NCBI GenBank assembly: GCA_020199835.1
Contig: JAIVJV010000001.1
Span: 248,001-312,000 of the forward strand
Direction: 5' to 3'
From: Acidobacteriota bacterium
Lineage (GTDB): Bacteria > Acidobacteriota > Blastocatellia > Pyrinomonadales > Pyrinomonadaceae
Length of the DNA stretch: 64,000 nt
Made by a program: the position numbers and the translations under genes. A model generated the notes under the pieces. The model did not search any database, was not told the origin of the DNA, and was given only the letters and a program-made list of their open reading frames with translations. Position 1 is the stretch's first letter, and every line of letters begins with the position of its first letter. Below, in pieces: positions 8,432-40,659 of this stretch.

Positions 8432-8434
8432 GGT

Positions 8435-9469: not shown

Positions 9470-9501
9470 CTCTTTTTATGGCTCAACGCGGGGAGTAAAC
9501 A

Positions 9502-11245: not shown

Positions 11246-11283
11246 CTCGCGCGATGAAGTTACAGATCGACGGCGGATAAGAG

Positions 11284-22678: not shown

Positions 22679-23214
22679 CTCGAGGCTCCCTCGCGATTGA
22701 GTTGCTGCACGAGCGGCATAAACTTGTCCTTCCAAACGTTGCGCGTAACCGGGCCGACGTGTTTGTGACGAATGACGCCGCTCTGATCGATAAGGTAAGT
22801 CTCAGGAGCGCCGTAAACGCCATAATCGATCGCAACGCGGCCGTCGAGATCCACCGCATTCACAACGTAAGGATCACCGAGATCGTTTAACCACGCGAGC
22901 GCATCTTCTCGTTTGTCTTTCCAGTTCAACCCGTAAATCGGCACTGCGCCGGCTTTTGCGTACTCGAGCAACAGCGGATGCTCATCGCGACAACTCACGC
23001 ACCACGACGCCCACACGTTCAGCACCCAAACCTTGCCGCGCATGTCTTCGGCGGAAAAGGTTTTGCTGGGATCGTTGAGTTGCGGCAGACGAAACGTCGG
23101 CGCGGCCTTGTTAATCAACGGCGACGGCACTTCGCGCGGATCGCGGCCGAGGCCGATCGCGAGAAACACAACCAACACGATGAATAAGCCTAAAGGTACC
23201 AGGTAACGCAACAT
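22675..23214 (-). CDS. ccmG: CcmG/DsbE thioredoxin of cytochrome c maturation
   Basis: 179 residues. A membrane anchor (LVPLGLFIVLVVFLAIGLG) is followed by a thioredoxin domain with WCVSC (71-75) and the cis-Pro region GAPETYLID near 140. The PREVPSPLINKAAPTFRLP segment is the DsbE signature. It supplies reductant to CcmH or to apocytochrome c. It lies 11 bases after ccmF and overlaps ccmH. Confidence 0.93.
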   Translation of the reverse strand: MLRYLVPLGLFIVLVVFLAIGLGRDPREVPSPLINKAAPTFRLPQLNDPSKTFSAEDMRGKVWVLNVWASWCVSCRDEHPLLLEYAKAGAVPIYGLNWKDKREDALAWLNDLGDPYVVNAVDLDGRVAIDYGVYGAPETYLIDQSGVIRHKHVGPVTRNVWKDKFMPLVQQLNREGASR

Positions 23215-23225
23215 CTTTTATAAGC

Positions 23226-25244
23226 CTACACGGATCCAGTGCGCGCGGTAACGGTGGCAGGAACTTCCGTAGTCTTCTTAACCGCCTCGCGTGCTTCACG
23301 TTCTTTTCTCGCCGCCAGCGCGTAGCGCCGATCGCTTACGGCGAGACCACCGCCGAGCGCCATCAACAGTGCGCCGCCCCAGATCCAGCCGACAAACGGC
23401 TTGTAATAAACGCGCACGCTCCACGCGCCGGAACCGACGGGTTCGCCAAGCGACACGTAGAGATCGCGAAACAGTCCGCTATCGATCGCCGTCTCGGTCA
23501 TCACGTTGCCGCTCGCCGTGTAATTCCGTTTCTCCGGATACATTCGCTCCTTCTCGACACCGTTGCGACTCACGATCACCTCGGCGCGCGCGCCAACGTA
23601 GTTTGGTCCCGTGATGTCAGTGACGCCGTTGAATTGAAACTGGTAACCGCCCGCTGAAGTCGTGTCGCCGATTTGCATCCGCACATCTTGTTCAGACTGG
23701 TAACCCGTCACCATCGTTACGCCCACGACGAACACCGCGACACCAACGTGCGCCAGGTGCATGCCGTAGTAACTGCGACTCTGCGTGCGCAGCTTTTGCA
23801 ATGTGGTCAACTGGCCTGAAGTGACGCGCACGCGTTCCCAGATATTCACCACGACTGTGGCCGCGATCCAGATCGCGAGCAGCAGTCCGAGACTAACCAG
23901 CCACTTCCAACCGCCGAGCACAAACGGCAGCACGATCGCGCTCAGCACGCTGACGCCAAATGCCCAACGCAAACGTTTCGCGATCTCCGGCAGGCTCGCT
24001 TTTTTCCAACGCGCAACCGGTCCAACGCCCATCAAAAACAGCGCCGGGGCCATCAGCGGCACGAAGACGAGATTGAAGTAAGGTGGACCCACGGAGAGTT
24101 TGCCCATGCCGAGCGCATCGATGATCAATGGATAGAGCGTGCCGAGCAGCACTGAGCCCGCGGCGACAGTCAACAGCACGTTGTTCGAAAGCAGCAGCGA
24201 CTCGCGCGAAACGACGTCAAACTTGCTTCCGAGTCCGACCTGTTTCGCACGCCACGCGTAGAGCAGCAACGAACCCCCGATCACAAACACGAGAAATGCG
24301 AGAATGAAAACGCCGCGTTTGGGATCGGTCGCAAACGCGTGTACCGAAGTGAGCACACCCGAGCGAACCAGAAACGTTCCGAGGAGGCTCAACGAAAACG
24401 CCGCGATTGCGAGTAGCACGGTCCAACTCTTGAATCCACCGCGTTTTTCCGTGACTGCGAGTGAATGGATCAACGCAGTGCCCACCAGCCATGGCATGAA
24501 CGAAGCATTCTCGACCGGGTCCCAAAACCACCAGCCGCCCCAGCCGAGTTCGTAGTAAGCCCACCAACTTCCGAGTGCGATGCCGCAGGTCAAAAACATC
24601 CACGCCACTGTGGTCCATGGACGCGACCAGCGCGCCCACGTGGCATCGAGTCGGCCGCCAATCAACGCAGCAATCGCAAACGCAAACGCCACTGAGAAAC
24701 CGACGTAGCCCATGTAAAGCAGGGGCGGATGGGCAATCATCGCCGGATCTTGTAGCAGGGGATTGAGATCGCGCCCGTCAGGCGGAACAGGAAAGATGCG
24801 CGCAAACGGATTCGACGTCAGCAGCATGAACAGCAGAAACCCGACGCTCACAATTCCCATCACGCTCATCACGCGCGACACCATCACTTCCGGCAAATGC
24901 CGGCTGAACAAAGAAACAGCGACGGTCCACAACGCGAGCATCAGCGTCCACAAAAGCAACGAGCCCTCGTGCGAGCCCCACGTTGCCGCGAGCCGGTAGT
25001 GCAACGGCAGTCGCGAGTTGGAATTTGTAGCGACGTTGAGAACAGAGAAATCGTTCGTGATGAACGAGTAACCCAGGCAGCAAAACGCGATGACGACGAA
25101 GATAAACTGCGCCTGTCCCGCCGGCACCGCGAGCGCGATCCACGTGTGATTACCGCGTGAAGCGCCGATGAGCGGCAATGTAGCCTGAGTTAACGCAAGC
25201 AGGAGTGCGATAACGAGCGCGAACTGACCAATTTCGGGAATCAT
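23226..25244 (-). CDS. ccmF: CcmF, heme lyase core subunit
   Basis: 672 residues, about 15 membrane segments. The tryptophan-rich heme-handling motif WGGWWFWDPVENASFMPWL lies near 235 and conserved histidines occur in SWGSHEGSLLLW near 90. CcmF receives heme from holo-CcmE and, with CcmH and CcmI, attaches it to CxxCH apocytochromes. Length is normal for the family. It directly abuts ccmE. The octaheme protein in this window is a likely client. Confidence 0.95.
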   Translation of the reverse strand: MIPEIGQFALVIALLLALTQATLPLIGASRGNHTWIALAVPAGQAQFIFVVIAFCCLGYSFITNDFSVLNVATNSNSRLPLHYRLAATWGSHEGSLLLWTLMLALWTVAVSLFSRHLPEVMVSRVMSVMGIVSVGFLLFMLLTSNPFARIFPVPPDGRDLNPLLQDPAMIAHPPLLYMGYVGFSVAFAFAIAALIGGRLDATWARWSRPWTTVAWMFLTCGIALGSWWAYYELGWGGWWFWDPVENASFMPWLVGTALIHSLAVTEKRGGFKSWTVLLAIAAFSLSLLGTFLVRSGVLTSVHAFATDPKRGVFILAFLVFVIGGSLLLYAWRAKQVGLGSKFDVVSRESLLLSNNVLLTVAAGSVLLGTLYPLIIDALGMGKLSVGPPYFNLVFVPLMAPALFLMGVGPVARWKKASLPEIAKRLRWAFGVSVLSAIVLPFVLGGWKWLVSLGLLLAIWIAATVVVNIWERVRVTSGQLTTLQKLRTQSRSYYGMHLAHVGVAVFVVGVTMVTGYQSEQDVRMQIGDTTSAGGYQFQFNGVTDITGPNYVGARAEVIVSRNGVEKERMYPEKRNYTASGNVMTETAIDSGLFRDLYVSLGEPVGSGAWSVRVYYKPFVGWIWGGALLMALGGGLAVSDRRYALAARKEREAREAVKKTTEVPATVTARTGSV

Positions 25245-25703
25245 TTAATTAGCAACAACTGACTTTGCGGCTTCTTTGGCGTGCTTCGCTTTATCTATTG
25301 CTTCGCCGGCTTCCGGCGGCATGTAGTTTTCATCGTGTTTAGCGAGCACCTGCTCGGCCTGGAACACGCCATCGGGACCGATCTTGCCCTGGGCCACGCA
25401 GCCGCGTCCTTCTTTAAAGAGGTCAGGGAGAATGCCTTTATATACTACCGGAATACTCGCGGCAGTGTCGGTGACGGTGAAGCGTACAGTCAAACCGTCG
25501 CCATCGCGTTGGAGCGTGCCGTCCTCAACGAGACCGCCGATGCGAAACGTGCGATCGACCGGCGCTTCTTTGGCAGCGACTTGAGTAGGACTAAAAAAGA
25601 AGACAAGGTTCTGACGAAAAGCACTCGCAACCAGAAAGGCCGCGAGGCTCAGCCCACCCAGTCCGACGAGAATGATTCCAATCCGTTTATGACGTCGTTT
25701 CAT
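25245..25703 (-). CDS. ccmE: CcmE, periplasmic heme chaperone
   Basis: 152 residues. A membrane anchor (10-28) precedes the OB-fold. The heme-binding HxxxY motif is H123-Y127 in [11 protein letters not shown]. It carries covalently bound heme from CcmC to CcmF. The start overlaps the ccmD 3' end by 17 bases. Confidence 0.95.
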
Positions 25704-25902
25704 TAGTACTTCCTCTCAGGACCGTCGTGCGCACAGCGGCCGGGCGGTCGTCATCAGCTACAGCTCTCCGCGCCTCGTTCGCTAACGCTTTCTTGCGGTG
25801 GCGCAGGCTCAGGACTTCCCAGACGATCGCCACGAGCGCGAACAGGTATGATCCCCAAACGTAGAAACCATATCCTCCCATCGATAGATCTGGCCAGTTC
25901 AT
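25687..25902 (-). CDS. ccmD: CcmD, small heme exporter subunit
   Basis: 71 residues from the ATG at 25902, which overlaps the ccmC stop (TAATG). The motif [20 protein letters not shown] followed by a basic stretch (RHRKK) is CcmD. It helps release holo-CcmE from CcmC. The C-terminal tail is slightly long for the family. Confidence 0.88.
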
Positions 25903-26627
25903 TACGCGTTCACCTCTGCCAGCCGGGAAGCGTTTTGCTCCCTCTCCAAAATAATGCAACGCAGGCGCACGAGCACGATCGCAACCGAGTAGAGCCAGCA
26001 CGCGGCCAGCATAATCAGCAGCGCAGTCAGCATCGGCGCGGCGATGCTTGGTTTGCCGAGGAGGCGAATCGTTGCGCCCTGGTGCAGTGTATTCCACCAC
26101 TGCACGGAGAAATAAATGATCGGAACGTTGATTACGCCAACGATGGCGAGCACGGCGCCCGCGCGATCCGCACGGCGTGGGTCGTCGATCGCCGCTTGCA
26201 ACGCGATGAAGCCGGCATACAGGAACAGCAGGATCAGCGTTGACGTCATTCGCGCGTCCCACGCCCACCACGTGCCCCACGTTGGTTTACCCCAAAACGC
26301 GCCGGTGACGAGCGAGAGCAACGTAAACATCGCGCCCGTGACAGCGATCGCTGAAGCCATCATCGACGAGAGACGCGCGTTGAACGCCCAACCGATGCCG
26401 GCGTAGATTGCCATTAGCACGTAGAGAAACATTCCCATCCACGCAGCCGGAACGTGAATAAACATGATGCGATAGGCGTCGCCTTGCTGGAAATCAGTCG
26501 GCGCAACGAAGAAGCCGACGTAAAGACCAACAGCAAACAGCAGCGCCGCCGGTATCGCAAACCACGGAATCATCTTGCCGGCGACCGGATAGAACATCGC
26601 GGGTGAAGCGTATTTGTAGAGTTTCAT
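25902..26627 (-). CDS. ccmC: CcmC, heme-handling membrane protein
   Basis: 241 residues from ATG 26627, 5 bases after the ccmB stop; an upstream in-frame start at 26672 would overlap ccmB. Six membrane helices with the WWD motif WGTWWAWDARMTS and HVPAAWMGM (a heme-ligand His) identify CcmC. It loads heme onto CcmE. Confidence 0.93.
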   Translation of the reverse strand: MKLYKYASPAMFYPVAGKMIPWFAIPAALLFAVGLYVGFFVAPTDFQQGDAYRIMFIHVPAAWMGMFLYVLMAIYAGIGWAFNARLSSMMASAIAVTGAMFTLLSLVTGAFWGKPTWGTWWAWDARMTSTLILLFLYAGFIALQAAIDDPRRADRAGAVLAIVGVINVPIIYFSVQWWNTLHQGATIRLLGKPSIAAPMLTALLIMLAACWLYSVAIVLVRLRCIILEREQNASRLAEVNA

Positions 26628-26632
26628 TTTGG

Positions 26633-27316
26633 TTATTCCAAAGAGATGCGTAACGCTGCGGACGCCGCCCACGGAGCGAACAACAACGACACAACCGCAA
26701 ATGCGCCGAGCAAGTAAAGATTCGGCGCGGGAGTAACTCCTATAATCGTTGCCTCAACTGCCCCCGCTCCAAAGATCAACGCCGGGACGTAAAGCGGCAG
26801 GATTAATATCGAGATTAAAACGCCGCCCCCACGCAGTCCCAACGTTAGTCCCGCTCCAACCGAACCAATCAAACTCAATATCGGCGTGCCAAGCAGAAGA
26901 CTCACAAACAACACCCACAACGTTTGTTTGCTCAAATCAAATTGCACACCAACGAGAGGCGCAATCAGCACCAGCGGCAACTCCGCAATGATCCAGTGCG
27001 CCAGAACTTTTCCGAGCACTACCAGAAACAGCGGTTGCGGCGTGAGCAACAACTGCTCGAGCGTGCCGTCCTGGTAATCGTTGGCAAACAACCTTCCCAG
27101 CGAAAGCATCGAGGCCAGCAACGCCGCGACCCAAACCACACCCGGCGCAATCGAACGCAACAACTGCGTCTCCGGCCCGATGCCGAGGGGAAACAGACTC
27201 ACGACGATCACAAAGAAGAAGACCGTCGATAAAATATCCGAACGCCGGCGCCAGGCCAGTATCAGATCGCGCCAAACGATCCAGCGCAACATCGATAAGC
27301 TCGAAGGTGCGTTCAC
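26633..27316 (-). CDS. ccmB: CcmB, ABC permease of cytochrome c maturation
   Basis: 227 residues with six membrane helices. The segment FANDYQDGTLEQLLLTPQPL is the CcmB signature. It forms the CcmAB transporter that drives release of heme-loaded CcmE. Its start overlaps the ccmA stop by 4 bases (GTGA-like overlap), so translation is coupled. Confidence 0.93.
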   Translation of the reverse strand: MNAPSSLSMLRWIVWRDLILAWRRRSDILSTVFFFVIVVSLFPLGIGPETQLLRSIAPGVVWVAALLASMLSLGRLFANDYQDGTLEQLLLTPQPLFLVVLGKVLAHWIIAELPLVLIAPLVGVQFDLSKQTLWVLFVSLLLGTPILSLIGSVGAGLTLGLRGGGVLISILILPLYVPALIFGAGAVEATIIGVTPAPNLYLLGAFAVVSLLFAPWAASAALRISLE

Positions 27317-27930
27317 GTGGTGAGTTCGAGTCGTTTGGTCACACCTGCCGACAACTCCAGTTCCTGATGCGTCGCGACAATGGCGATGCCGCCGCGGTTC
27401 AGGTGTTCTTCAATCAAAGATCTAACAAGTCCGACCGCGCGCTTGTCCAGCGAGGTCAGCACCTCGTCCAACAACCAAAGACGCGTGTTAGAAACCAGCA
27501 ATCGCGCCAACGCGACACGTCTACGTTGTCCTTCCGACAAGAACCGGGCCGGAAGTCGTTCGCGTCCGGCGAGTCCCATCGTTTGCAGTGCGCCGGAAGC
27601 GTTTTCGGTATCGACTTCAACGCCATTCACCGCATTCGCAATGGTTAGATTCTCAAGCGCGCTCAGTTCGTCTTTGACGCCGGGGCGATGGCCGAGGTAA
27701 GTGACGGCCGTGAAATAATCCTCACCGAGCGAGCGAATATTCGCACCTTCCCAACGTATCTCGCCTTCTGCCGGCTCCAGCAGCCGACATAAGATTCGAA
27801 GCAAACTGGTCTTGCCGCTGCCGTTCGGTCCGGTGAGTTGTACGTAGGTTCCCGGCGATAACGAAAGATCGAGACCGCGGAAAAGCCTGCGATCACCGCG
27901 CACGCATCCGAGTTTGCTGATCTCTAATAT
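27313..27930 (-). CDS. ccmA: CcmA, ABC ATPase of cytochrome c maturation; start codon non-canonical or GTG 27903
   Basis: The ABC motifs are Walker A GPNGSGKTS, signature LSEGQRRRVALARLL, Walker B LWLLDEV and the H-loop VATHQ. The first canonical start in frame is GTG 27903, but conserved family sequence (LEISKLGC) is encoded upstream of it. At the place where the family initiator is expected there is an ATA (27930-27928), preceded by GGAGG 11 bases upstream. So either ATA is used, or translation begins at GTG and loses the first strand, or the base is wrong. This is the first gene of the ccm operon. Confidence 0.88.
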   Translation of the reverse strand: MLEISKLGCVRGDRRLFRGLDLSLSPGTYVQLTGPNGSGKTSLLRILCRLLEPAEGEIRWEGANIRSLGEDYFTAVTYLGHRPGVKDELSALENLTIANAVNGVEVDTENASGALQTMGLAGRERLPARFLSEGQRRRVALARLLVSNTRLWLLDEVLTSLDKRAVGLVRSLIEEHLNRGGIAIVATHQELELSAGVTKRLELTT

Positions 27931-28243: not shown

Positions 28244-30190
28244 ATGACCTATCCGTTCACAGCCATCGTCGGCCAGGAAGAGATGAAACTGGCCTTGATA
28301 CTAAACCTCGTCGACCATTTGATCGGCGGCGTTTTGATCATGGGGCACCGGGGAACGGGGAAATCAACGGCCGTTCGCGCGCTCGCAGCGTTACTGCCGC
28401 CCATCGAGGTCGTCGCCGACTGTCCTTTTAATTGCGATCCCGCTAATCCGTGTTCCAACTGTCTTGCAAACGACGAACGCTCGTCGCGATCTGTGCCGGT
28501 TCCCGTCGTCGAACTGCCTTTAGGTGCGACCGAGGATCGCGTCTGCGGCACGATCGACATCGAACGCGCGCTTACTTCGGGTCGAAAGGTTTTCGATCCA
28601 GGTTTGCTGGCGCGCGCGAATCGCGGGTTCCTTTATATCGACGAAGTCAACTTGCTTGAAGATCACCTGGTGGATCTGTTGCTCGACGTCGCCGCAACCG
28701 GACGAAACAGAGTCGAACGCGAAGGCATCTCGGTCGAACATCCGGCGAGTTTTGTTTTGATTGGTTCGGGAAATCCGGAAGAAGGCGATCTGCGACCGCA
28801 GTTACTCGATCGGTTTGGACTGCACACGGAAGTCGTTACCGAGAACTATTTGAAAAATCGCGTGGACATCGTCGAGCGCCGTGACGCGTACGATCACCAT
28901 CGCAACGCGTTCTGCGAATCGTTTGCGCCTGAGCAGCAGCAGCTCGCGAAACGGATCGCGCGGGCGCGGACGAATTTGCGAAAGGTAAGTGTTTCGCGTG
29001 CCGTTCTGGAAAAGATCGCGCAGCTTTGTGCCGACTTGAAGGTAGACGGGCATCGTGGCGAACTCACGATCATGCGCGCGGCGCGAGCCCTCGCGGCGTT
29101 CGAAGGACGGCGTTCCGTTAACGATGATGACGTGAGACGCGTTGCGGCGATGTCGCTGCGGCATCGCTTGCGGCGTGACGCGCTCGATGAGACTGCGACG
29201 AGCGAACAGATTGGTGAAGCGGTGGATGAAGTGCTTCCACGTTCAGGAACGCCCAAGAGTGACGATCAAGAGGCCACGGATAACAGAGATCCGGTCATGA
29301 ATCCGCCTAATCCCGCTCCTTCTCGCTCGCGCAACGGAGGTGCTCCGAACAAAAAGGAAGGACCTTCACCACCAGCCGTCGATACGAAAAAGCGCGAGTC
29401 GCGTCTTGAAGAACAGTTGCAGCCAAAGGATCGTACGCGCAAGTCGAAGACGAAAACGCGCCGTTCGGCCGGCGCGAAGGCGGCCATGCAACAGTTGCGC
29501 GGCCGCTACACGCGTTCCGTCATGTTCAAGAAAGAGGGCGCGCGAATCGCTGTAGATGCGACATTGCGGGCGATGGCTCAGGCGCACACTCCGTTGACGC
29601 GGGTCACTTCCGACGCGCTGCGTTACAAATTACTCAAAGACAAACAGGGCACACTCTTCATATTCGCGATCGACGCCTCGGGCAGCATGGCCGCGAATCG
29701 CATCGCGCGCGCGAAGAGCACGATTCTCAAACTGCTGCGCAAGTCGTACGTGAATCGCGACAGCGTGGCCATCGTTTCGTTTCACGGCATGAGCGCGAAC
29801 CTCGACTTGCCGCCGTCGCGAAGCATCCTGCGTGCACGCCGAGTGCTCGACTCGTTACGCATGGGCGGCAGCACGCCGCTCGGCGCAGGACTGGTCACGA
29901 CGATCAATCTGATCAAGCTCGTCGGCGATAAGTTTGGTGAGACGGTCGTGTTACTGTTTACCGACGGCCGTTCGAACGTTCCGCTTCGCCGCGACGGTGT
30001 CAACGTGCGCGCGCTGCGCCATCTGAAGATCGACGGCGAACTGCGCGAGCTTCATGCGGCGCTGAAGAAGACACAGGCGCGCGTGATCGTCGTCGATACG
30101 CAGAAAGAGTTTGAGTCGAGCGAAGAGAGCCGGCGGCTTGCTCAGATACTCCAGGCGCAGTTTCTAAAACTCGCGCCGTCAGTCCCTTAA
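28244..30190 (+). CDS. bchID: Fused Mg-chelatase I/D subunit (AAA+ plus VWA)
   Basis: 648 residues. The N-terminal third is a BchI/ChlI-type AAA+ ATPase: Walker A GHRGTGKST (34-42), a four-Cys segment CPFNCDPANPCSNC (60-73), Walker B LYIDEVNLLEDHLVDLLLD (130-148) and SGNPEEGDLRPQLLDRFGL. A hydrophilic linker (about 315-430) leads to a von Willebrand A domain with MIDAS motif DASGSMA (477-483) and FTDGRSN. Classic ChlD carries its own inactive AAA+ domain; here one active AAA+ serves both roles. I/D complexes power Mg2+ insertion into protoporphyrin IX by the H subunit. Similar fused proteins work with CobN in some bacteria, but the downstream H genes favour Mg-chelatase. Confidence 0.88.
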   Translation: MTYPFTAIVGQEEMKLALILNLVDHLIGGVLIMGHRGTGKSTAVRALAALLPPIEVVADCPFNCDPANPCSNCLANDERSSRSVPVPVVELPLGATEDRVCGTIDIERALTSGRKVFDPGLLARANRGFLYIDEVNLLEDHLVDLLLDVAATGRNRVEREGISVEHPASFVLIGSGNPEEGDLRPQLLDRFGLHTEVVTENYLKNRVDIVERRDAYDHHRNAFCESFAPEQQQLAKRIARARTNLRKVSVSRAVLEKIAQLCADLKVDGHRGELTIMRAARALAAFEGRRSVNDDDVRRVAAMSLRHRLRRDALDETATSEQIGEAVDEVLPRSGTPKSDDQEATDNRDPVMNPPNPAPSRSRNGGAPNKKEGPSPPAVDTKKRESRLEEQLQPKDRTRKSKTKTRRSAGAKAAMQQLRGRYTRSVMFKKEGARIAVDATLRAMAQAHTPLTRVTSDALRYKLLKDKQGTLFIFAIDASGSMAANRIARAKSTILKLLRKSYVNRDSVAIVSFHGMSANLDLPPSRSILRARRVLDSLRMGGSTPLGAGLVTTINLIKLVGDKFGETVVLLFTDGRSNVPLRRDGVNVRALRHLKIDGELRELHAALKKTQARVIVVDTQKEFESSEESRRLAQILQAQFLKLAPSVP

Positions 30191-30193
30191 TTC

Positions 30194-31828
30194 GTGTCAG
30201 AAATCGATTCGAAACAACGCGATGAGAAAGTATTTGAGCTGTACGAGCAGCTGCTGGAGATTGAGCAGCGGCTTATACCGACGGGTCTGCACCTTTTCGG
30301 ACGGCCCTCGTCGGCGGGCGAGCAGATCGATCTGTTCAAGATGATCGCGTCGTTTGACCGTCCGGAACATGGTATTCGCGCGTTGCCGCAAGAACTGGTC
30401 GAGGACGCTGTCCGAGAGTTTTTGGAACACGGATCAGACGCAGCAACCCGTTTGCTGGAAGGGCAGGGATTAAAACCCGAATCAACGCGGCCGGTGTTTG
30501 CGTTGCTTGAAAGTGTTTCCGCAAAGCTACAAACCAACACTGAGATCGACGCATTGATTCGTGCCATCCGTGGTGAGTTTATCGAGCCCGGCCCCGGCGC
30601 TGACATCATTCAGAATCCCGACGTTCTGCCCACCGGACGAAACACACACGCGATCAATCCTTACTCTGTTCCGTCGGCCGTTGCCTTCGCGCGCGGCGAA
30701 GTAGTCGCGACGAGTCTGCTCGAACGTTATCGCAACGAGCACGGTCGTTTTCCCGAAGCAATGGCGCTCGTGTTGTGGGGACTCGACAATATCAAGACGC
30801 AGGGCGAAGGCGTGGCGCAGGCGTTGTGGCTACTCGGCGTGCAGCCGGTGCGCGACGCTTTAAATAGGAGCACGAGTGTCGCCGCAATTCCGTTGGCCGA
30901 ACTGGGCCGTCCGCGGATCGACGTGGTGATGACAGTGTCAGGCATCTTCCGCGATCTGTTTAGTCCCACCGTGCAGTTGCTCGATAAAGCCGTGCGCCTC
31001 GTGGCCCAACTGGACGAGCCGTTGGAACAGAACTACGTGCGCAAGCACGTGCACGAACAGATCGCGCAAGAGCGCTGTGAGCTCGACGATGCCGCGGTGC
31101 GTGTCTTTTCCAATGCCCCCGGCAACTACGGGACGAACGTCAATTTCATGGTGATGGACTCGTCGTGGGAACGCGAAGAGACGCTCGGCGATCTCTTCGT
31201 CACGCGCAAGTGTTTCGCTTACGGCCGCGACTCGCGCGGACGCGCCATCGACGGCAGGGAAGCGCGCGTTGCGATGGACCGCGCGTTGTCGCGTGTCGAA
31301 GCCACTTACCAGAACATCGACACGTTTGAGATTGGGCTGACGGACGTGGACCACTACTTCGAATATCTCGGCGGCGTGTCGAAAGCGGTGGAGAAACGGG
31401 CGCGTGCGCGGCCGGCGATCTACCTTTCAGATAGTCTTTCACGCGAAGTGAAGATCCGAACGCTCGAGGAGTCGGTGCGTCTTGAGACGCGCACGAAGAC
31501 GCTGAATCCCAAGTGGTACGAGGGAATGCTGAAGCACGGGTTCAGGGGCGTGGCGGAGATCGAGAACCACGTGTCGAATACGTTCGGCTGGAGCGCGACC
31601 GCGGATGCGGTTGATGACTGGATTTACGCGGAAGTCGCGAATACGTTTCTGTTTGACGAAACGATGCTGGAGCGTTTGCGCGAGTTGAATCCCCATTCGG
31701 CGCACGCCCTCGTGCAGCGTCTGTTGGAGGCGAATGGCCGGGGTTATTGGGACGCGGATTCGACGGCACTGGAGAAATTGCGCGACATCAGCCGCAGTCT
31801 CGAGGATCAACTGGAAGGCGTCGCATGA
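30194..31828 (+). CDS. bchH: Mg-chelatase H subunit, C-terminal half (split, encoded first)
   Basis: 544 residues from GTG 30194, 3 bases after the bchID stop. It begins at the position equivalent to the middle of BchH/ChlH (LYEQLLEIEQRLIPTGLHLFG, residues 17-36) and runs to the family C-terminus. Signature stretches are NPDVLPTGRNTHAINP (141-156), RIDVVMTVSGIFRDLF (241-256) and FSNAPGNYGTNVNF (305-318) with SSWEREETLGDLFVTRK after it. No N-terminal H domain precedes it; that half lies in the next gene. Each piece ends in a linker region of the family, so both may fold and associate into one H subunit. A frameshift cannot explain the reversed order. Confidence 0.9.
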   Translation: MSEIDSKQRDEKVFELYEQLLEIEQRLIPTGLHLFGRPSSAGEQIDLFKMIASFDRPEHGIRALPQELVEDAVREFLEHGSDAATRLLEGQGLKPESTRPVFALLESVSAKLQTNTEIDALIRAIRGEFIEPGPGADIIQNPDVLPTGRNTHAINPYSVPSAVAFARGEVVATSLLERYRNEHGRFPEAMALVLWGLDNIKTQGEGVAQALWLLGVQPVRDALNRSTSVAAIPLAELGRPRIDVVMTVSGIFRDLFSPTVQLLDKAVRLVAQLDEPLEQNYVRKHVHEQIAQERCELDDAAVRVFSNAPGNYGTNVNFMVMDSSWEREETLGDLFVTRKCFAYGRDSRGRAIDGREARVAMDRALSRVEATYQNIDTFEIGLTDVDHYFEYLGGVSKAVEKRARARPAIYLSDSLSREVKIRTLEESVRLETRTKTLNPKWYEGMLKHGFRGVAEIENHVSNTFGWSATADAVDDWIYAEVANTFLFDETMLERLRELNPHSAHALVQRLLEANGRGYWDADSTALEKLRDISRSLEDQLEGVA

Positions 31829-33846
31829 ACATCACGGTGCTTTATGTTGGATCGAGTTTGCTGGCGCCGCTGAAGAATGCGGAGCAAGAGATCAATCGCG
31901 TCTACGATTTGAACCTGCGCGTGGCGGCTTACAATTTTGGTTCGCCGCTGAGTGATGGCGAGTGGGCCGAGGTTGAGCGTGATTTGGCCCAAGCGAACGT
32001 TGTGTTCGTGATTCATGTGATGGACGGCGAGAACGCGTCGCGCTTGATACAGTCGCTTAAGACTCACAAACATGATGCGGTTGTAGTGATCAACTGCATG
32101 CCGGAGTTGATGCGCCACACGCGCATGGGCCGGTTGGATATCGGGTCGGTGAGCCGTTGGGTACCTAAATTCAAAGCCGATAAAAAAAGAAAAGCCAATC
32201 ACGGGCATTACCTGAAGCTCGTTAACCGGCTTCCCAAAGTTCTCAAGTTTGTTCCGACGGCCGGCGCGTTCACCGACGCGAAACACTATCTGCAGCTCTT
32301 CTGTTACTTCCTTCAGCCGACGCCCTCAAACATTCAGTCGATGCTGCTTTACTCGCTGAAGCATTACGTTCGCGACGCGCGTCTCAAGCGCGTGAAGGTT
32401 TTAGAGGTGCAGCAGGTCCCGACCGTGGCGATTTATCATCCCGACGCGCCGGAGCTTTTCGAAACCTTCGAGGCCTATGAAGAGTGGTGCGCCGCGAAAA
32501 AGCAACTCGCGCTCGATCGAGACTCAACACTCGGCCTGTTGCTGATGCGACCGCAAGTCGTCAGCAAAACCACGAAACACTACGACGTTCTGATCCGCTC
32601 GATCGAGGCCGAAGGCCTCTCCGTCATTCCGGCGATCGCCACCCTGATGGACAATCGCGAAGCCGTCTCAAAGTTCTTCGTCGACAACGGCAAGTCGCGC
32701 GTCAGCCAGATCGTGTCGCTCACGGGCTTCAGTTTCGTCGGCGGCCCGGCGATGAACGACAGCGCCGCCGCGTCACAATTTCTGCGCGACCTTAATCTTC
32801 CGTATCGCTCGGCAGTCAGTCTCGACACCCAAACGATCGAAGCGTGGTCCGACTCCGCGACCGGTCTCAATCCCATCCAGGCCGGAATGCAGATCGCGAT
32901 TCCCGAGATCGACGGCGCCACCGAACCGTTTATCTACGGCGGCATTCCCGGCCGCGGCCAGGAACCGGTTGCGCTTGAAGATCGCTGCACGCGGCTCGCG
33001 CGACGATTGAAGCGTTGGCACAACCTGCAAACAGCGCCACGCGAACAAATCAAGCTCGCGATCGTGCTGTTCTGTTTTCCGCCGAGCAAAGGAAACATCG
33101 GCACGGCCGCGGATCTCGACGTGTTTCCCGGCGTCTGGGATTTGTTGAAGCGACTCAAAGAAGAAGGTTACCGAGTCGACGTTCCCGAAAACGCTGAGGT
33201 TTTGAGAGAACAACTATTAGGCGGTAACTCAGAACAGTTTGGATCGACAGCCAACCTCGCTTACCGGATGAGCCCTGATGAATATCGGCGCCTTTGTCCG
33301 TACGTCAGGGAGGTGGAGGGGGATTGGGGCGCAGTGCCCAGTAAGATACCAATCCAAGGCATATCACTGGCCAATATCTTCATCGGCGTCCAACCGACTT
33401 TCGGTTACGAAGGCGACCCGATGCGGATGATAATGGCGCGCAGCGGCTCGCCGCATCACGGCTTCATGGCGTTCTACACGTATCTGTCGAAGGTGTTTAG
33501 CGCCGACGGCGTGATTCACTTCGGCACGCACGGTTCCCTCGAATTCATGCCGGGCAAACAGATCGGGCTCTCGAGCGAGTGCTGGCCGGATCGACTGATC
33601 GGCGAATTACCCAACTTTTACGTCTACAGCGTTAACAATCCTTCGGAGGGATCGATCGCGAAACGCCGGTCATACGCCGAACTGGTCTCTTACCTCACGC
33701 CGCCGATCGAAAATGCGGGTTTATACAAAGAGCTCGCCGGTTTACGGGATCTCGTGCAGGCATACCGTCAATCAAACAGTGAAACCGAACGAGCGCGCCT
33801 CTACGCATCTATCGAAGAAGTCAGCTCCGAACTCCACCTGAATTGA
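31825..33846 (+). CDS. bchH: Mg-chelatase H subunit, N-terminal half (split, encoded second)
   Basis: 673 residues from ATG 31825, which overlaps the stop of the C-terminal-half gene (ATGA), giving tight coupling. Residues 1-155 are the BchH N-terminal domain (DUF3479) with its hallmark RHTRMGRLDIG (97-107). Then come the first part of the CobN/Mg-chelatase domain: GGIPGRGQEPVALED (372-386), GVQPTFGYEGDPMR (521-534), HFGTHGSLEFMPGKQ (565-579) and NNPSEGSIAKRRSYA (604-618). It ends at 673 (SSELHLN), just where the other half starts by homology. Together the two halves give about 1217 residues, the normal BchH length. DUF3479 argues against CobN. Confidence 0.9.
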   Translation: MNITVLYVGSSLLAPLKNAEQEINRVYDLNLRVAAYNFGSPLSDGEWAEVERDLAQANVVFVIHVMDGENASRLIQSLKTHKHDAVVVINCMPELMRHTRMGRLDIGSVSRWVPKFKADKKRKANHGHYLKLVNRLPKVLKFVPTAGAFTDAKHYLQLFCYFLQPTPSNIQSMLLYSLKHYVRDARLKRVKVLEVQQVPTVAIYHPDAPELFETFEAYEEWCAAKKQLALDRDSTLGLLLMRPQVVSKTTKHYDVLIRSIEAEGLSVIPAIATLMDNREAVSKFFVDNGKSRVSQIVSLTGFSFVGGPAMNDSAAASQFLRDLNLPYRSAVSLDTQTIEAWSDSATGLNPIQAGMQIAIPEIDGATEPFIYGGIPGRGQEPVALEDRCTRLARRLKRWHNLQTAPREQIKLAIVLFCFPPSKGNIGTAADLDVFPGVWDLLKRLKEEGYRVDVPENAEVLREQLLGGNSEQFGSTANLAYRMSPDEYRRLCPYVREVEGDWGAVPSKIPIQGISLANIFIGVQPTFGYEGDPMRMIMARSGSPHHGFMAFYTYLSKVFSADGVIHFGTHGSLEFMPGKQIGLSSECWPDRLIGELPNFYVYSVNNPSEGSIAKRRSYAELVSYLTPPIENAGLYKELAGLRDLVQAYRQSNSETERARLYASIEEVSSELHLN

Positions 33847-34078
33847 TCAGCGTTTCAAAGCTGCCAACGTCTACGCGATGCCGGAAGGCTTCGGTGCCGT
33901 CGATCGTCACTACGGGAATGTCGTACTTATATTTTCTGAGCAGCTCCGGATCACATTCGATATTGATCTCTTCGAGCGTGAAGCCGTCATCGCATCCGGC
34001 GGTCATGATCGCGAGCTTCGCTTCGTCGCAGAGGTGACACCCGGGTCGTGAATAAACAATTACATGAGGTTTAGCCAA
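33821..34078 (-). CDS. Glutaredoxin-like protein
   Basis: 85 residues from TTG 34078 (GGAG 8 bases upstream). It is a small thioredoxin-fold protein with YSRPGCHLCDEAK (CxxC at 14-17) and the cis-Pro loop DIPVVTIDG, of the glutaredoxin/DUF836 type. Redox role is general; the partner is unknown. It is convergent with, and overlaps by 26 bases, the N-terminal-half bchH gene. Confidence 0.85.
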   Translation of the reverse strand: MAKPHVIVYSRPGCHLCDEAKLAIMTAGCDDGFTLEEINIECDPELLRKYKYDIPVVTIDGTEAFRHRVDVGSFETLINSGGVRS

Positions 34079-34361: not shown

Positions 34362-34964
34362 TTGGATAGTCAAGCCGATCAAATATCCGCCCGACCAGGA
34401 GCACTGAACGCGCCCTCCAAGGTGAGCGCCGCTGCTCCGGCTAAACCGGTGGAGACGGTCGAGACAACTTCTGATCCGCCAGTGAACAAGATGCGCCGCC
34501 GCATCGTGTGGGCGACTGTCGCCGGTTCGCTGATCACTTTCTTTCTGATGTTCGTGCGGTTCTTCCTGCCGCGTTCAATCCTTGAGCCATCCAGCGTCTT
34601 TCGTATCGGCCCGCCGGGCGACTACGCGCTGGGTGTCGATACGAAGTGGCAGCAACAGTATCGCGTCTGGGTGACGCGGACTTCGGACCGACTGTTTGTG
34701 ATTTACGCGCGCTGCACGCATCTCGGCTGCACTCCCGACTGGAAAGCCAGCGAAAACAAGTTTAAGTGTCCCTGTCACGGCAGCGGCTACGACAGCGAGG
34801 GAATCGCGTTTGAAGGTCCCGCGCCGCGGCCGATGGACCGGGCGAAGGTAACGCTCGATGCTGAAGGACAGATCGTGGTCGACGTGGGGACGCTTTTCGA
34901 GTGGCCCAAGGGCGGAACAAACGAGTTTGAAGATGAAGAGGGCGGCGCTTATATCAGGGTGTGA
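34362..34964 (+). CDS. petC: Rieske iron-sulfur protein of quinol:cytochrome c reductase
   Basis: 200 residues from TTG 34362, supported by GGAGG 9 bases upstream. An N-terminal extension (1-44) precedes one membrane helix (about 46-68). The [2Fe-2S] ligands lie in CTHLGC (118-123) and CPCHGSGYD (136-144). It accepts electrons from quinol at the outer face and passes them to cytochrome c. It is followed by cytochrome b in two genes. Confidence 0.93.
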   Translation: MDSQADQISARPGALNAPSKVSAAAPAKPVETVETTSDPPVNKMRRRIVWATVAGSLITFFLMFVRFFLPRSILEPSSVFRIGPPGDYALGVDTKWQQQYRVWVTRTSDRLFVIYARCTHLGCTPDWKASENKFKCPCHGSGYDSEGIAFEGPAPRPMDRAKVTLDAEGQIVVDVGTLFEWPKGGTNEFEDEEGGAYIRV

Positions 34965-34994
34965 GCCACGGATTTATATAGATGGACACTGATC
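34963..34994. repeat. Short dispersed repeat copy overlapping the petB start
   Basis: The sequence gagccacggatttatatag followed by atggacactgatcc resembles the repeat arms at 43577-43651. It contains the ATG of petB and encodes its first residues, so a repeat seems to have supplied the start codon. Confidence 0.45.
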
Positions 34995-35911
34995 CCAAAG
35001 ATTCAAAAGAAACGAAGCAACTCACGACGGGTGAAGAGGACCGAAAGAGTCTCGTAACGCGTGTCAAAGAGGGCACGAGTGCACTCAAAGACCGTGCGGT
35101 AGACGAAGCGAAGGAGTACAAGGATCCGCAGGAGACGCAACTTTGGAAATCGATCTTTCGCGTCTCGCACGATCGCTCGGATCCGCGTAACCGTTCGCTT
35201 GCGATTCTCTCGAACGTCTTTCTGCACCTGCATCCGGCCAAGATTAATCGGGACGCCGTGCGCTACCCGTTCACGTGGGGAATGGGCGGCATCACGTTCT
35301 ATCTGTTTATCGTGCTGACCTTTACCGGTGTATTGTTGATGTTCTACTACCACCCGACGAAGGCTGACGCATTTCGCGACATTCTGTATCTCGAGCACGA
35401 CGTGCCGTTTGGGAAGTTGTTGCGCAACATGCATCGCTGGGCGGCGCACCTGATGGTGATCACGACCTGGCTGCACATGTTTCGCGTGGTGTTGACGGGT
35501 TCGTACAAGCGCCCGCGCGAGTTTAACTGGTGTGTCGGCGTGGTATTGCTGGTGTTGACGCTGCTGCTTTCGTTCACCGGTTACCTGTTGCCGGATGACC
35601 AGCTCGGTTTCTGGGCGGTGACCGTCGGCACGAACATGGCGCGCGCGACGCCAATGCTTGGTAGTGAAGGGCCTTTCGGTCCGCAACTCGGGTTGACTGC
35701 TTACAACGACGTGCGGTTTGGGTTATTGGGCGGCTCGATCGTCGATTCCAACGCGCTCTTGCGGTCATATATCTGGCACTGCATCGGCATTCCGCTGGTC
35801 GCGTCGATATTCATGGCGGTGCATTTCTGGCGCATTCGCAAGGACGGCGGCATTTCCGGGCCTGCGCCGATCGTGCTTGAGTCCGAGATGAAAGCCGTCA
35901 AGAAAAAGTGA
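34982..35911 (+). CDS. petB: Cytochrome b (b6-type N-terminal subunit)
   Basis: 309 residues with a charged 60-residue N-terminal extension, then four membrane helices. Heme ligands are H151 and H165 in helix B (spacing 14) and H266 and H281 in helix D (spacing 15). The extra residue in helix D is the b6f-type spacing, unlike mitochondrial-type cytochrome b. The subunit ends after helix D; the rest is the next gene. It forms the quinol-oxidising core. The first residues lie in a short dispersed repeat, so the true start could be further in. Confidence 0.92.
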   Translation: MDTDPKDSKETKQLTTGEEDRKSLVTRVKEGTSALKDRAVDEAKEYKDPQETQLWKSIFRVSHDRSDPRNRSLAILSNVFLHLHPAKINRDAVRYPFTWGMGGITFYLFIVLTFTGVLLMFYYHPTKADAFRDILYLEHDVPFGKLLRNMHRWAAHLMVITTWLHMFRVVLTGSYKRPREFNWCVGVVLLVLTLLLSFTGYLLPDDQLGFWAVTVGTNMARATPMLGSEGPFGPQLGLTAYNDVRFGLLGGSIVDSNALLRSYIWHCIGIPLVASIFMAVHFWRIRKDGGISGPAPIVLESEMKAVKKK

Positions 35912-37038
35912 TGAGAAGATTCGTTAACAAGTGGACCATCCTGGGTGTTTGTTTGGTGATCGTTGCGCTCTGGGCGATCAACGTCCAGGATTGGCATCAG
36001 CTTTGGGTGATCTCTTCGACGCCCGATAACATTCCGATCGTCGCGATGCTTGCCCTGGTGCCTTTCTTCACCTGGATGGGCATCAGGCAAGCAGTCGCCA
36101 ACGATCGGCTGATTGAGCAGCTCGAAGCGGATCCCAAGCTCTCCAAAACGCACCATCGCAAAGTTGAACCGTGGCGACCAGGTTGGGCACGGGAAATTCA
36201 CGTCTGGCCCTATCTTGTCCGTATTGAATTTCTGGCCACCGTGATTGTTACGGTGGTTCTTTTTATTTGGTCCATCACGCTCAACGCGCCGCTCGAAGAG
36301 CCTGCTAATCCGAACCTGACGATGAACCCGTCGAAAGCGCCGTGGTACTTCCTCGGATTGCAGGAGATGCTTGTCTACTTCGATCCGTGGATCGCGGGCG
36401 TCGTGATGCCGTCGCTCATCATGGTCGGCCTGATGGCGTTTCCGTACGTGGACTCAAACCCGCTCGGCAACGGTTATTACACGCTGCGGCAACGCCGTTT
36501 TGCGCTCTGGATGTTTGGCGCGGGTTTTGTGCAATGGATCGTTTTGATCGTGATCGGCACGTTCATTCGTGGACCGGGCTGGATCTGGTTCTGGCCGGGA
36601 CAAACCTGGGATCACAACGCCGTGGTGTTCGATAAAAACATCGATCTCCACGACATGGTTATCGCCAGCAGCATGGGCAGCACGTTGGGTCTTGGATTTC
36701 TCGGTAACGAGCCGTACTACGGCATCTACAAATTTATTTTTGGCTTGATTGTGGTCACCGGCTTTTTCATCGTCGGCGCGCTTTTCTTCCACTGGCTCAT
36801 GACGGTCGACTTCAAAAAGATGCGGATGCCGCGCTCGTTGCGTCCGCGCGAGCTTCACAGCGCTCTTTTTCCGAAGAGCGAGTTTGAACAAAAGATTCTT
36901 CAGCGGACGAGTCTGTTGCAGTACCTGACGTTCCAGTTTTTTGCCGTAAGCGTGCTGCTCGCGCTGCCGGTGAAGCTGGTTTTACGACTAGCGTTCACCA
37001 TCAAGTATGTGTGGGTGACTCCGTGGTTTAACATTTGA
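35908..37038 (+). CDS. petD: Cytochrome b C-terminal subunit (subunit-IV-like, extended)
   Basis: 376 residues from GTG 35908, or ATG 35911, overlapping the petB stop. It contains KAPWYFLGLQEMLVYFDPW, the equivalent of the PEWY quinol-site region with APWY replacing PEWY, and later helices. It is longer than plant subunit IV (160 residues), with an extra N-terminal membrane helix and a long C-terminal part with 3 more helices. Together with petB it completes the b subunit. Confidence 0.88.
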   Translation: MMRRFVNKWTILGVCLVIVALWAINVQDWHQLWVISSTPDNIPIVAMLALVPFFTWMGIRQAVANDRLIEQLEADPKLSKTHHRKVEPWRPGWAREIHVWPYLVRIEFLATVIVTVVLFIWSITLNAPLEEPANPNLTMNPSKAPWYFLGLQEMLVYFDPWIAGVVMPSLIMVGLMAFPYVDSNPLGNGYYTLRQRRFALWMFGAGFVQWIVLIVIGTFIRGPGWIWFWPGQTWDHNAVVFDKNIDLHDMVIASSMGSTLGLGFLGNEPYYGIYKFIFGLIVVTGFFIVGALFFHWLMTVDFKKMRMPRSLRPRELHSALFPKSEFEQKILQRTSLLQYLTFQFFAVSVLLALPVKLVLRLAFTIKYVWVTPWFNI

Positions 37039-37077
37039 GAAATGCTCAATATTTGAGTATGCGGAGGGAAGATCACA

Positions 37078-40000
37078 GTGGCTGATTCTCCAGCACCAGG
37101 CGAATCATTAGTCAAAAGAGAAGCCGAGGCGCCGGCAAACGATCCAATCGTTAGCCGTTCGACCAGCGGCTGGATGCTCGTTTGCGCGTTGCTGCTGACG
37201 ATTTCCATAGCCTGGGCGCTTTGGGATGAAGCGTTCGGACAGCGGCCGTGGAAGGGAATGCAGCGCGAGTTTGTCGCTCGCTACACGCGCTATCTCGACA
37301 GCATCAAGGCGAACGCCGGCAGGTCAGAAGCGGAGATCAAGGAGAGTCCGGAGTATCTGCAACTCGACGCCGAATACAAGGCGGCCGAAGAGCTGGTGAT
37401 GCCGGAGGTAAAACAGATCGACACCGAAGTCGCGCGCGTGCAGAAGAAACTGGATGCAGTCACCGATCCGTTTCAAAACCAGCGCGGTCGCCTGACCGTT
37501 ATCAATTACTACGTCGAAACTTCGACCGGTTCGGCGCAGGAACGCTATCGCCGCGAAGCGGAAGAGAAGAAGCAGGAAACGATCGAAGTCGCCATGCCTG
37601 CCGACAACGGTCACGCCGCAGGCACGCAACAATTCAATTACGCACAGCTCGAAAAACTTTACGACGAACTGCGCGAACAGAAAGCACAGAACCTCGGACG
37701 CAAAGCGGAACTCCTTAAAGCGCCGTCAGAACTCAGAAAGAAACGCGACGACTATTTAAAGAACCAGTTAATCGGCTTAGGCCCGGCAGCTATCGAGGGC
37801 TTGAAAGCCAAGATGGCGAACTACGACTATTCGATCCTCGGCCATCAGATCAGCGTCAACGCTTACAACATCGTCGATCGGTGCGAAGTCTGTCACGCAG
37901 GCATCAGAGAACCGTTGGAACTCACGCCGGCAAGCCTCGCACCGGACAAACCGGGCGGCGAGCCTGACAGGTTGGCGCGCGCGTTCGTAAGCCATCCGAA
38001 ACGAGAGATTCTCGCGGTCCACAGTCCGGAAAAATTCGGTTGCGCGAGTTGTCACTGGGGCAATGGCCGCGCTACGACAAACGAGACCAAGGGTCACGGA
38101 CGCCATCGCTTCTGGCTCTGGCCCATGTTCGAGAAGGAGAACACGGAAGCCGGCTGCCAGCAGTGTCACGCGCGCGATCGTGTGACTGACGGTGCGGACA
38201 CGTTGAACCTCGGCCGTGATCTTTTCGCCGAGCGCGGTTGCGTGGGTTGTCACCGCTACGAAGGTTTTGATCGCGAAACAGACGCGCTGGGCGCGGCGCG
38301 CCAGCAAATCGGCCAGCTTGTAGATCAGATTACGGGCAACGAGAAGCAGATCCGCGCCAATGAGCAGACGGGCGGGGATCCGAATACAACCGAGGAGCAA
38401 GTGAAACGACTGCTTGCTCAGAGTGAGAGCCTGCGCGTTACGAACAGTCTCCTGGAAGCGCGGATCGATCAGTTGAACCTGCAAACGAAATACTTGATGC
38501 AGGATCAAAAGAAGGTTGGGCCAAATTTGAAAGACGTGCGCGTGAAGTTGCGCAAGGAGTGGGTGCCTTACTGGCTGGAGAACCCGCAGGGTTTCCGCCC
38601 CGGCACGAAGATGCCGACGTTCTGGCGTTTCGCAGCGCCGCTGGACGACAGCCACGGAAAGTTGCGCGACAAGGATGCGCCACAGCAGATCCAGGCCATC
38701 GCTGCGTATCTCTGGCAGGATAGCTTCGACCTGAAACTGCCGGAGCAACAGCGCGGCGACGCCGGTAAGGGCAAACAGCTCTTCGAGACGCGCGGCTGTC
38801 TCGCCTGTCACTCGACTGGTGAAGGCGACAGCAAGATGGGCGGCAGCTTTGCCGCGAACTTGCAACGCGTCGGCGAGAAATCCAACTTCGACTACATCGT
38901 GCGCTGGATTCACAATCCGCGCGAACGCGTCGCTCCTTATTGTCCGAAAGAAAAGCGCGACCTGACACACGAAGATTACGCGAAGAAGAACCTGCCGTTT
39001 GTTTTTGACACTGAACTCCACTCAACTTGCCCGAACGATGGCGCGGAGTTGCAAGTGCAGAACATGACGGTCATGCCTAACTTCCGTCTGTCGGAACAGG
39101 ATTCGCGCGACATCGCGACTTACTTGTTCTCGCTTTCGTCGCAGCAAAATTACGCCGCGGCTCCGTACATGGACGACCCTAATATCAAGGAGAAAGGCCG
39201 GCTGTTAATCAAGCAGTATGGCTGCGCGGGTTGTCACGAGATTCGCGGCTTCGAAGAGGAGCAGCGTATCGGCAAGGAACTCACGGTTGAAGGCGCGACC
39301 CCGATCGAGCGTCTCGACTTCGCGCTCCAAACGCACCACGCGCAGGAAGGCGAGGATCCGCTTAAGCTTCGGCCCGAGGCTGAACATAAGCCCTGGTACA
39401 ACCACAAGGGTTTCTTCGAGCGCAAAATCGCGCAGCCTTCGATCTATGACGAGGGCAAAGAGAAAGATCCGAAGGACAAGCTGCGTATGCCGCAGCCGTA
39501 TCTCACGCCTGAATGGCGCGTCGCTCTGACGACGTTCCTGCTCGGCAGTGTCGGGACAGAAGGTTCGAACGTGCCCGGTTCGCTCTTCTTCAATCCGCAG
39601 GACCAGCGACGGCAGGACATTCAAAACGGTTGGTGGGTAATCAAGAAATACAACTGTCAGGGTTGTCACCAGCTCGAGGTCGGACAGCGTTCCGCGGTGC
39701 AGGAGCTGCCGTTCTATCAGACACCGGAAGGCAAGGATCTCTTGCCGCCGCGTTTGACGAGCGAAGGCGCCCGTGTGGATCCGGCATGGCTGTTGAAGTT
39801 CCTGCACGATCCGTCGTTGAGCGGCGAGAAGACGCCGGAGCAACAGCGGCAGATGAGCGCCCTGATAGGATCGCCGGCCGCGCACGCACAGCCTTCGCCC
39901 GTGCCCCGAGCGAATGCGAGCGCCAGTCCTGGTGCAAGTCCGGGCGCGAGTCCGAGCGCGAATCAGGCGGCGAAGTTGCCGCCGCAGCCGGGACTTGATC

Positions 40001-40659
40001 GCAATGGCGTGCGACCGTACTTGCAGTTCCGCATGCCTACGTTCAACTTCTCGCCGAACGAGTTGCAAGTGCTCGTGCGGTTCTTCATGGCGATGTCGGG
40101 TCAGCAGGATCCTTACATCAGGGAACCGATGAAGCCCCTGACGGACCAGGAGAAGATCACGGCGCGGCAGATGTTCACGTCGGGAACGCCGTGTTTGAAG
40201 TGTCATATCACGGGCGATCCAACCCACGACGCGACGGCGATTGCGCCGAATTTCCTGTTGGCGAGTGAACGCCTGAAGCCCGAATGGACGTTCCGCTGGC
40301 TGCTCGATCCGGCGCGCATTAGTCCCGGAACTGCAATGCCAACCGGACTGTTTCGCAAGGAAGGCGAGCGTTGGGTGGTGAATCTACCCAACCCGCCGGC
40401 GAGTGCGAGCGCTTATCACGATGATCACGCGCGGCTGCTGGTGCGCTACATGTTCCTGCTGAATCCGGATGAGCAGCGGCAACTGCTGGCGGCAGAAAGA
40501 AGCGGACCTATGCCTGTGGCAACCGGAGGGGCAAGGCCTGCGATGCAGAATCACGCGCGGTCAAGACGGCGAAGAACGGGTTTTCATCATCGGCGGAAGC
40601 CGGTACGCGCCGCTGTCGGACGTAGCGCCGCGCGTGCGCTACTAACCGGCTACAGATAG
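37078..40659 (+). CDS. Membrane-anchored octaheme cytochrome c of the bc complex
   Basis: 1193 residues from GTG 37078. An N-terminal helix (GWMLVCALLLTISIAWALW) is followed by a charged coiled-coil region (about 70-255) and eight CxxCH motifs: CEVCH, CASCH, CQQCH, CVGCH, CLACH, CAGCH, CQGCH and CLKCH. A Ser/Pro/Ala-rich linker (SASPGASPGASPSAN) separates hemes 7 and 8. It directly follows petD, so it likely takes the place of cytochrome c1 or f and feeds the oxidase downstream. The last 35 residues are Arg-rich, while another frame there reads more protein-like (EERVFIIGGSRYAPLSDVAP, stop at 40643), so the 3' end may be frameshifted. Confidence 0.88.
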   Translation: MADSPAPGESLVKREAEAPANDPIVSRSTSGWMLVCALLLTISIAWALWDEAFGQRPWKGMQREFVARYTRYLDSIKANAGRSEAEIKESPEYLQLDAEYKAAEELVMPEVKQIDTEVARVQKKLDAVTDPFQNQRGRLTVINYYVETSTGSAQERYRREAEEKKQETIEVAMPADNGHAAGTQQFNYAQLEKLYDELREQKAQNLGRKAELLKAPSELRKKRDDYLKNQLIGLGPAAIEGLKAKMANYDYSILGHQISVNAYNIVDRCEVCHAGIREPLELTPASLAPDKPGGEPDRLARAFVSHPKREILAVHSPEKFGCASCHWGNGRATTNETKGHGRHRFWLWPMFEKENTEAGCQQCHARDRVTDGADTLNLGRDLFAERGCVGCHRYEGFDRETDALGAARQQIGQLVDQITGNEKQIRANEQTGGDPNTTEEQVKRLLAQSESLRVTNSLLEARIDQLNLQTKYLMQDQKKVGPNLKDVRVKLRKEWVPYWLENPQGFRPGTKMPTFWRFAAPLDDSHGKLRDKDAPQQIQAIAAYLWQDSFDLKLPEQQRGDAGKGKQLFETRGCLACHSTGEGDSKMGGSFAANLQRVGEKSNFDYIVRWIHNPRERVAPYCPKEKRDLTHEDYAKKNLPFVFDTELHSTCPNDGAELQVQNMTVMPNFRLSEQDSRDIATYLFSLSSQQNYAAAPYMDDPNIKEKGRLLIKQYGCAGCHEIRGFEEEQRIGKELTVEGATPIERLDFALQTHHAQEGEDPLKLRPEAEHKPWYNHKGFFERKIAQPSIYDEGKEKDPKDKLRMPQPYLTPEWRVALTTFLLGSVGTEGSNVPGSLFFNPQDQRRQDIQNGWWVIKKYNCQGCHQLEVGQRSAVQELPFYQTPEGKDLLPPRLTSEGARVDPAWLLKFLHDPSLSGEKTPEQQRQMSALIGSPAAHAQPSPVPRANASASPGASPGASPSANQAAKLPPQPGLDRNGVRPYLQFRMPTFNFSPNELQVLVRFFMAMSGQQDPYIREPMKPLTDQEKITARQMFTSGTPCLKCHITGDPTHDATAIAPNFLLASERLKPEWTFRWLLDPARISPGTAMPTGLFRKEGERWVVNLPNPPASASAYHDDHARLLVRYMFLLNPDEQRQLLAAERSGPMPVATGGARPAMQNHARSRRRRTGFHHRRKPVRAAVGRSAARALLTGYR

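Follow-up and report, generated by a model that had tools for sequence, protein, structure and literature searches.

A probable BchH-type chelatase with its H subunit encoded as two genes, C-terminal half first, in non-phototrophic Acidobacteriota

The chelatase H subunits that were found with a solved structure or a described role are all single chains, and they act in chlorophyll, B12 or haem-iron metabolism. Among them are ChlH/BchH (Synechocystis structures 4zhj and 6ysg; TIGR02025, PRK12493), CobN, which works with CobS/CobT or ChlI/D, and the haem dechelatase HmuS (9d26, 9p4s). HmuS, of the same superfamily, works without ATP; its cavity lies between domains III, V and VI, where two histidines hold the metal, one in HFG(T/A)HG and the other in LSLDHxxEFMGG (PMC12583661). 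On the side of the motor, a frameshifted chlD is known in which the single gene serves the roles of both I and D (PMC9227772).

The locus described here lies in a stretch of 64,000 nucleotides (the window) from the genome of a bacterium of the Blastocatellia. It resembles ChlH/BchH in family, in its DUF3479 head, in its motifs with the equivalents of E625 and E660, in the fold of each half, and in having I and D alongside; it differs in that H consists of two chains with the genes in the order C then N, in a host without BchM and BchL and within a respiratory cluster. With CobN it shares the superfamily (PF02514) and the class I mechanism, but it has DUF3479, no CobN-type motifs, and a host without CbiC. 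It is like HmuS in the superfamily fold and in a cavity-facing pair of histidines in corresponding motifs. HmuS, however, consists of a single chain, anchored in the membrane, that carries a methionine-rich insertion and lacks a motor, whereas most carriers of the split H have the I-D motor, and by inspection neither that insertion, nor the membrane anchors, nor an hmu operon (features taken from PMC12583661) was seen here. As in the frameshifted chlD, a single gene supplies the motor with both its AAA+ and its VWA part (PMC9227772), although the I-D gene is a single uninterrupted frame and family f2 and locus L025 have I and D as separate genes. Taken as a whole, the locus is best explained, with good though not full confidence, as encoding a class I (AAA+-driven) BchH-type tetrapyrrole metal chelatase with H made as two separately encoded chains and working by the mechanism proposed below. 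Its features are collected in Table 1.

Table 1. Features of the split chelatase locus and its surroundings (positions in the window)
Feature	Position	Strand	Remarks
Cytochrome c maturation genes ccm A, B, C, E, F, H, divergent	22112..27903	-	CcmF and ABC matches
Fused AAA+ motor gene (I-D), BchI-type AAA+ (aa 1-332) and D-type VWA/MIDAS	28244..30190	+	648 aa
H-C chain gene, C-terminal half of BchH/ChlH-type H subunit	30194..31828	+	544 aa, GTG start
His387 of H-C in DHYFEYLGG, predicted second face of metal site	31352..31354	+	HmuS His1209 counterpart
Shine-Dalgarno-like site GGAAGG for H-N gene	31813..31818	+	read from sequence
H-N chain gene, N-terminal half of H subunit with DUF3479	31825..33846	+	673 aa, ATG start
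His569 of H-N in HFGTHGS	33529..33531	+	HmuS His538 counterpart
Glu573 of H-N, Synechocystis ChlH E625	33541..33543	+	invariant 41/41
Glu608 of H-N (NNPSE), Synechocystis ChlH E660, proposed catalytic glutamate	33646..33648	+	invariant 41/41
Glutaredoxin-like (DUF836) gene directly after chelatase	33821..34078	-	PF05768
Rieske, cytochrome b (two genes) and large multihaem c-type cytochrome: quinol-cytochrome c reductase operon	34362..40659	+	PF00355, PF00033, PF00034

The initial annotation had described two genes of these coordinates and lengths, joined by an ATGA overlap, and a reading of the sequence agrees with it. H-C starts 3 nt past the stop of the I-D gene, and the GGAAGG site lies within the end of the H-C gene, 6 nt upstream of the ATG of H-N. 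In Pfam, H-C matches positions 551-1088 of PF02514 (CobN-Mg_chel, 1090 positions; E 6.6e-179) and H-N positions 3-538 (E 1.8e-153), so that the two ORFs jointly cover 3-1088, with DUF3479 in H-N only. In place of the single polypeptide of about 1200-1400 aa of BchH/ChlH there are thus two ORFs, and these two pieces are the only PF02514 matches in the source genome. Against the PDB chain of Synechocystis ChlH, H-C aligns with residues 756-1350 and H-N with residues 52-721. The earlier claims that the C-terminal half is encoded first and the DUF3479-bearing N-terminal half second, and that together they make up one H subunit, are therefore borne out. So is the placing of the break in a linker: it falls between ChlH chain residues about 738 and 756, a stretch that is variable in the unsplit heliobacterial and cyanobacterial proteins, and the same linker carries the break everywhere the split H was found. 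The best NCBIfam matches of both chains are BchH/PRK12493, well over CobN; singly the chains score under the full-length cut-offs, as expected of halves. When each half was folded alone, AF2 gave a pLDDT of 81 for H-C and 80.7 for H-N, with ChlH first in Foldseek for both, and the C-terminal domain matched 5ewu with a TM of 0.94.

The residues of the presumed active site are divided between the chains. H569, E573 and E608 of H-N are invariant across 41/41 sequences, and H387 of H-C is near-invariant, in a motif of BchH type and not of CobN type. Indeed HFGTHG, NNPSE and DHYFEYLGG carry the BchH-type signature at all positions checked, and the CobN-type signature at none. E573 and E608 were equated with the essential ChlH glutamates E625 and E660 using a 20-residue tag offset deduced from printed alignments; ChlH variants at these two positions, E625K (6ytj), E660D (6yt0) and E660W (6ytn), have been solved. 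From the sequence, the active site would be built from both chains, with H569, E573 and E608 contributed by H-N and H387 by H-C. Because one histidine of the pair is in each chain, both chains would have to meet to form the site.

To the source genome were added its relatives, giving a sample of 59 genomes. PF02514 was found in 33 of them; the three Chloracidobacterium genomes each have two full-length proteins, and in the remaining 30 there are only halves. Wherever a non-phototrophic Blastocatellia genome examined had the gene, it was split. Both halves lie on one contig and strand in 27 genomes (25 including the source genome, plus G125 and G401), always with C before N and never with N before C. 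The arrangement spans three families, includes contigs of 300-500 kb, and recurs in independently assembled genomes, which excludes chance and misassembly. A permutation or mis-join in assembly, allowed for in the initial annotation and favoured by nothing beyond the oddness of the order, is therefore refuted by these genomes and can be given practically no weight, and the swapped order is taken as real. Among the split loci, the 37 that were read all have intact ORFs, in keeping with the clean starts and stops remarked on before. The junction between the halves varies: some overlap at ATGA, some are a few to about 100 nt apart, some 300-720 nt, and in G032 a gene of 454 aa (L146 8583-9947), caspase-like by eye, stands between them. 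G043 (100% complete) and G051 carry the halves on separate contigs, and neither half has its partner within the long flanking sequence. Since they are unlinked in two genomes and separated by a gene in another, the halves are independent genes. A frameshifted single gene was also considered; as had been argued, it cannot give a reversed order, and the unlinked halves of G043 and G051 likewise exclude it. Both halves are under strong purifying selection (dN/dS 0.08-0.11), and their distances correlate with r 0.89, for which shared phylogeny is partly responsible. In G029 (L150 6462-8625) the N-half is broken into two frames in the assembly, by sequencing error or decay.

The I-D protein scores 505 bits on TIGR02030 (BchI), above the curated cut-off of 467, contains a VWA domain, and is the sole BchI-type match in the source genome. 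Such a match is present in 23/26 non-phototrophic H carriers at least 80% complete versus 0/24 non-carriers, a comparison of related species for which the Fisher p is only indicative. BchI matches are missing from four H carriers. For G047 the gene may be concealed by the end of a contig, while G004 and G012, 97-98% complete, lack the match in their whole genomes. The latter two belong with G401 to a sub-clade (L018, L026, L027, L030) that has both H halves with catalytic residues intact and no I-D at the locus. Therefore, H persists without this motor in one sub-lineage. The linker of the I-D gene contains a G AAA AAG run; it was read for programmed frameshifting, and no sign of use was found.

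The Blastocatellia that carry the split genes are soil bacteria. Among the 59 genomes, BchM and BchL are over the cut-off only in the Chloracidobacterium genomes G045, G049 and G053, and so do not accompany the split H in any carrier. CbiC is absent from 59/59 genomes, control genomes being positive, and from the genomes of six further acidobacterial carriers, some of which may duplicate the 59. By these markers, therefore, the enzyme has no chlorophyll pathway and no corrin pathway in which to act. In the 56 non-phototroph genomes, HemH is found in 25/30 carriers of the split H, including the source genome, versus 16/26 non-carriers (Fisher p 0.08). Two nearly complete genomes, G009 and G038, have the split chelatase and no HemH match. 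Replacement of HemH, an attractive idea for these two, was rejected for the carriers' tendency to have it. A link to the coproporphyrin pathway was sought through HemQ, which most genomes of family f1 have whether or not they carry the chelatase, which none of f2 and f4 has, and which was not found in the source genome at its 83% completeness; there is no pattern of presence with the chelatase, and the link was dropped.

In the window, the Rieske/cytochrome b operon is followed by genes for haem A and haem O synthase and oxidase. The ccm genes upstream are conserved in several relatives, the glutaredoxin-like gene is kept in most f1 loci, and the Rieske/cytochrome b genes adjoin many f1 loci, that of f4 (L137) and L025, but not those of f2. 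An all-against-all comparison of flanks found no conserved neighbours other than bc, ccm and common housekeeping genes. The synteny of ccm, I-D, H-C, H-N and Rieske/cytochrome b is the best clue to a respiratory or haem-handling role. Within the operon, window positions 37078-40659 encode a multihaem c-type cytochrome of 1193 aa.

In a tree of BchH and CobN, built without sequences of green sulfur bacteria and Chloroflexus, the split sequences form one clade inside BchH (support 100/100), apart from CobN at 100/100. Chloracidobacterium BchH groups with purple-bacterial BchH and not with the split clade. The next relative is L031 (97/94), a Chloroflexota MAG whose genome was the one covered by the search in that phylum. 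There (7941-11554) BchH is split at the same linker, in the normal order N-C with a TGATG overlap, next to a CbiG-methylase fusion; the split, in a single MAG, may be a sequencing frameshift. The same genome has a full-length PF02514 gene beside CbiC, and the split gene is therefore a second chelatase in it. A split in normal order fits fission first and reordering later, so the history is most likely fission in a BchH-like ancestor with subsequent separation and reordering in Blastocatellia. The tandem duplication with loss of outer halves proposed initially is unproven, and, considering G043, G051, G032 and L031, fission followed by rearrangement is at least as likely.

Several other functions for the split H have to be weighed. 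The most serious is that it is an enzyme of the haem side, a ferrochelatase or a reverse dechelatase like HmuS, which feeds cytochrome maturation. Its conserved site between ccm and the bc-type operon, the haem A/O synthase genes downstream, the ATP-independent action of HmuS in the same superfamily (PMC12583661), the sub-lineage that keeps H without the motor, and the two nearly complete carriers without HemH would all suit such an enzyme. Nevertheless, most carriers have the motor, the active-site motifs are those of BchH without the HmuS insertion and anchors, and HemH is present in most carriers while the genomes without it are mostly non-carriers. We regard the haem-side function as rather unlikely. 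A cobaltochelatase for vitamin B12 with a BchH-like subunit is far less probable. The I-D protein does score 655 bits on TIGR02442 (putative cobaltochelatase), but under the cut-off of 779; the L031 pair lies by a CbiG-methylase fusion in a genome with CbiC, but that genome's own full-length PF02514 gene is the one beside CbiC. On the BchH-type residues, the tree and the missing CbiC, this function was rejected for the split H.

Still less credit can be given to a decaying, non-functional relic of lost phototrophy. The phototrophic Chloracidobacterium belongs to the same class Blastocatellia, no pathway partner was found, and G029 has its broken N-half; on the other hand, the dN/dS of about 0.1, the invariant catalytic residues and the joint retention of the motor and both halves speak against decay, as does the position of Chloracidobacterium BchH in the tree; on the tree and the dN/dS, a relic of Chloracidobacterium phototrophy was rejected. 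Against the reading as a two-chain chelatase with its motor stand the lack of any downstream Mg-porphyrin enzyme among those sought, the four carriers without BchI, the broken N-half of G029, and the f2 chelatase lying away from the bc operon. The bipartite BchH-type chelatase is, judged from sequence, real, conserved and probably functional. Of the working split chelatase of the initial annotation, named there after magnesium, the working split H is supported; magnesium and the product are presumptions, the chlorophyll and corrin markers being absent.

From the intact and conserved genes, the shared break, the conserved active site, the co-occurrence of the motor, the synteny and the missing chlorophyll and corrin markers, we infer the following mechanism. 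H-C and H-N would be products of the same operon as the I-D motor and would assemble non-covalently, each chain supplying part of the substrate cavity between the domains. I-D would hydrolyse ATP and thereby drive a divalent metal into a porphyrin, the leading guess being that Mg2+ enters protoporphyrin IX or coproporphyrin. The product would probably be used by these non-phototrophs in respiration or in the handling of haem, and not for chlorophyll. The C-N order, most likely left by fission of a BchH-like gene and rearrangement, would be harmless and mechanically trivial, because the chains are separate products.

Here selection keeps a BchH-type chelatase as two chains, tied to cytochrome genes, in organisms where signs of making chlorophyll or corrins are lacking. 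More tentatively, as a possibility that we hold to be less than even, the enzyme of these Acidobacteriota makes a metalloporphyrin, possibly a Mg-porphyrin, for respiration or haem trafficking, and represents a deep BchH clade underived from the known chlorophyll pathways. If so, Mg-porphyrin chemistry exists, and perhaps existed, outside chlorophyll synthesis. The clade also brings an orphan BchH lineage to the question of how chlorophyll biosynthesis arose. As a tool, a two-chain H would allow the halves, between which the active site is divided, to be purified, mutated and recombined separately, and so to ask how the motor opens and closes the cavity. Consistent with the earlier statement that no such case is described, the literature searched, with subscription papers largely outside it, describes no split BchH, ChlH or CobN and no chelatase in these bacteria; the novelty is thus provisional.

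Outside Blastocatellia, the PF02514 genes of Acidobacteriota, as sampled, are single-chain, and those read are CobN-like or more distant. The second chelatase of Chloracidobacterium (L134 8985-12896, L174 6917-10837) is CobN-like and full-length, in a genome where CbiC was not found. A full-length acidobacterial class I chelatase in G245 (L163 6316-11121) has an HmuS-type motif, LSLDHVYEFMGG, and is possibly a haem dechelatase outside Bacteroidota.
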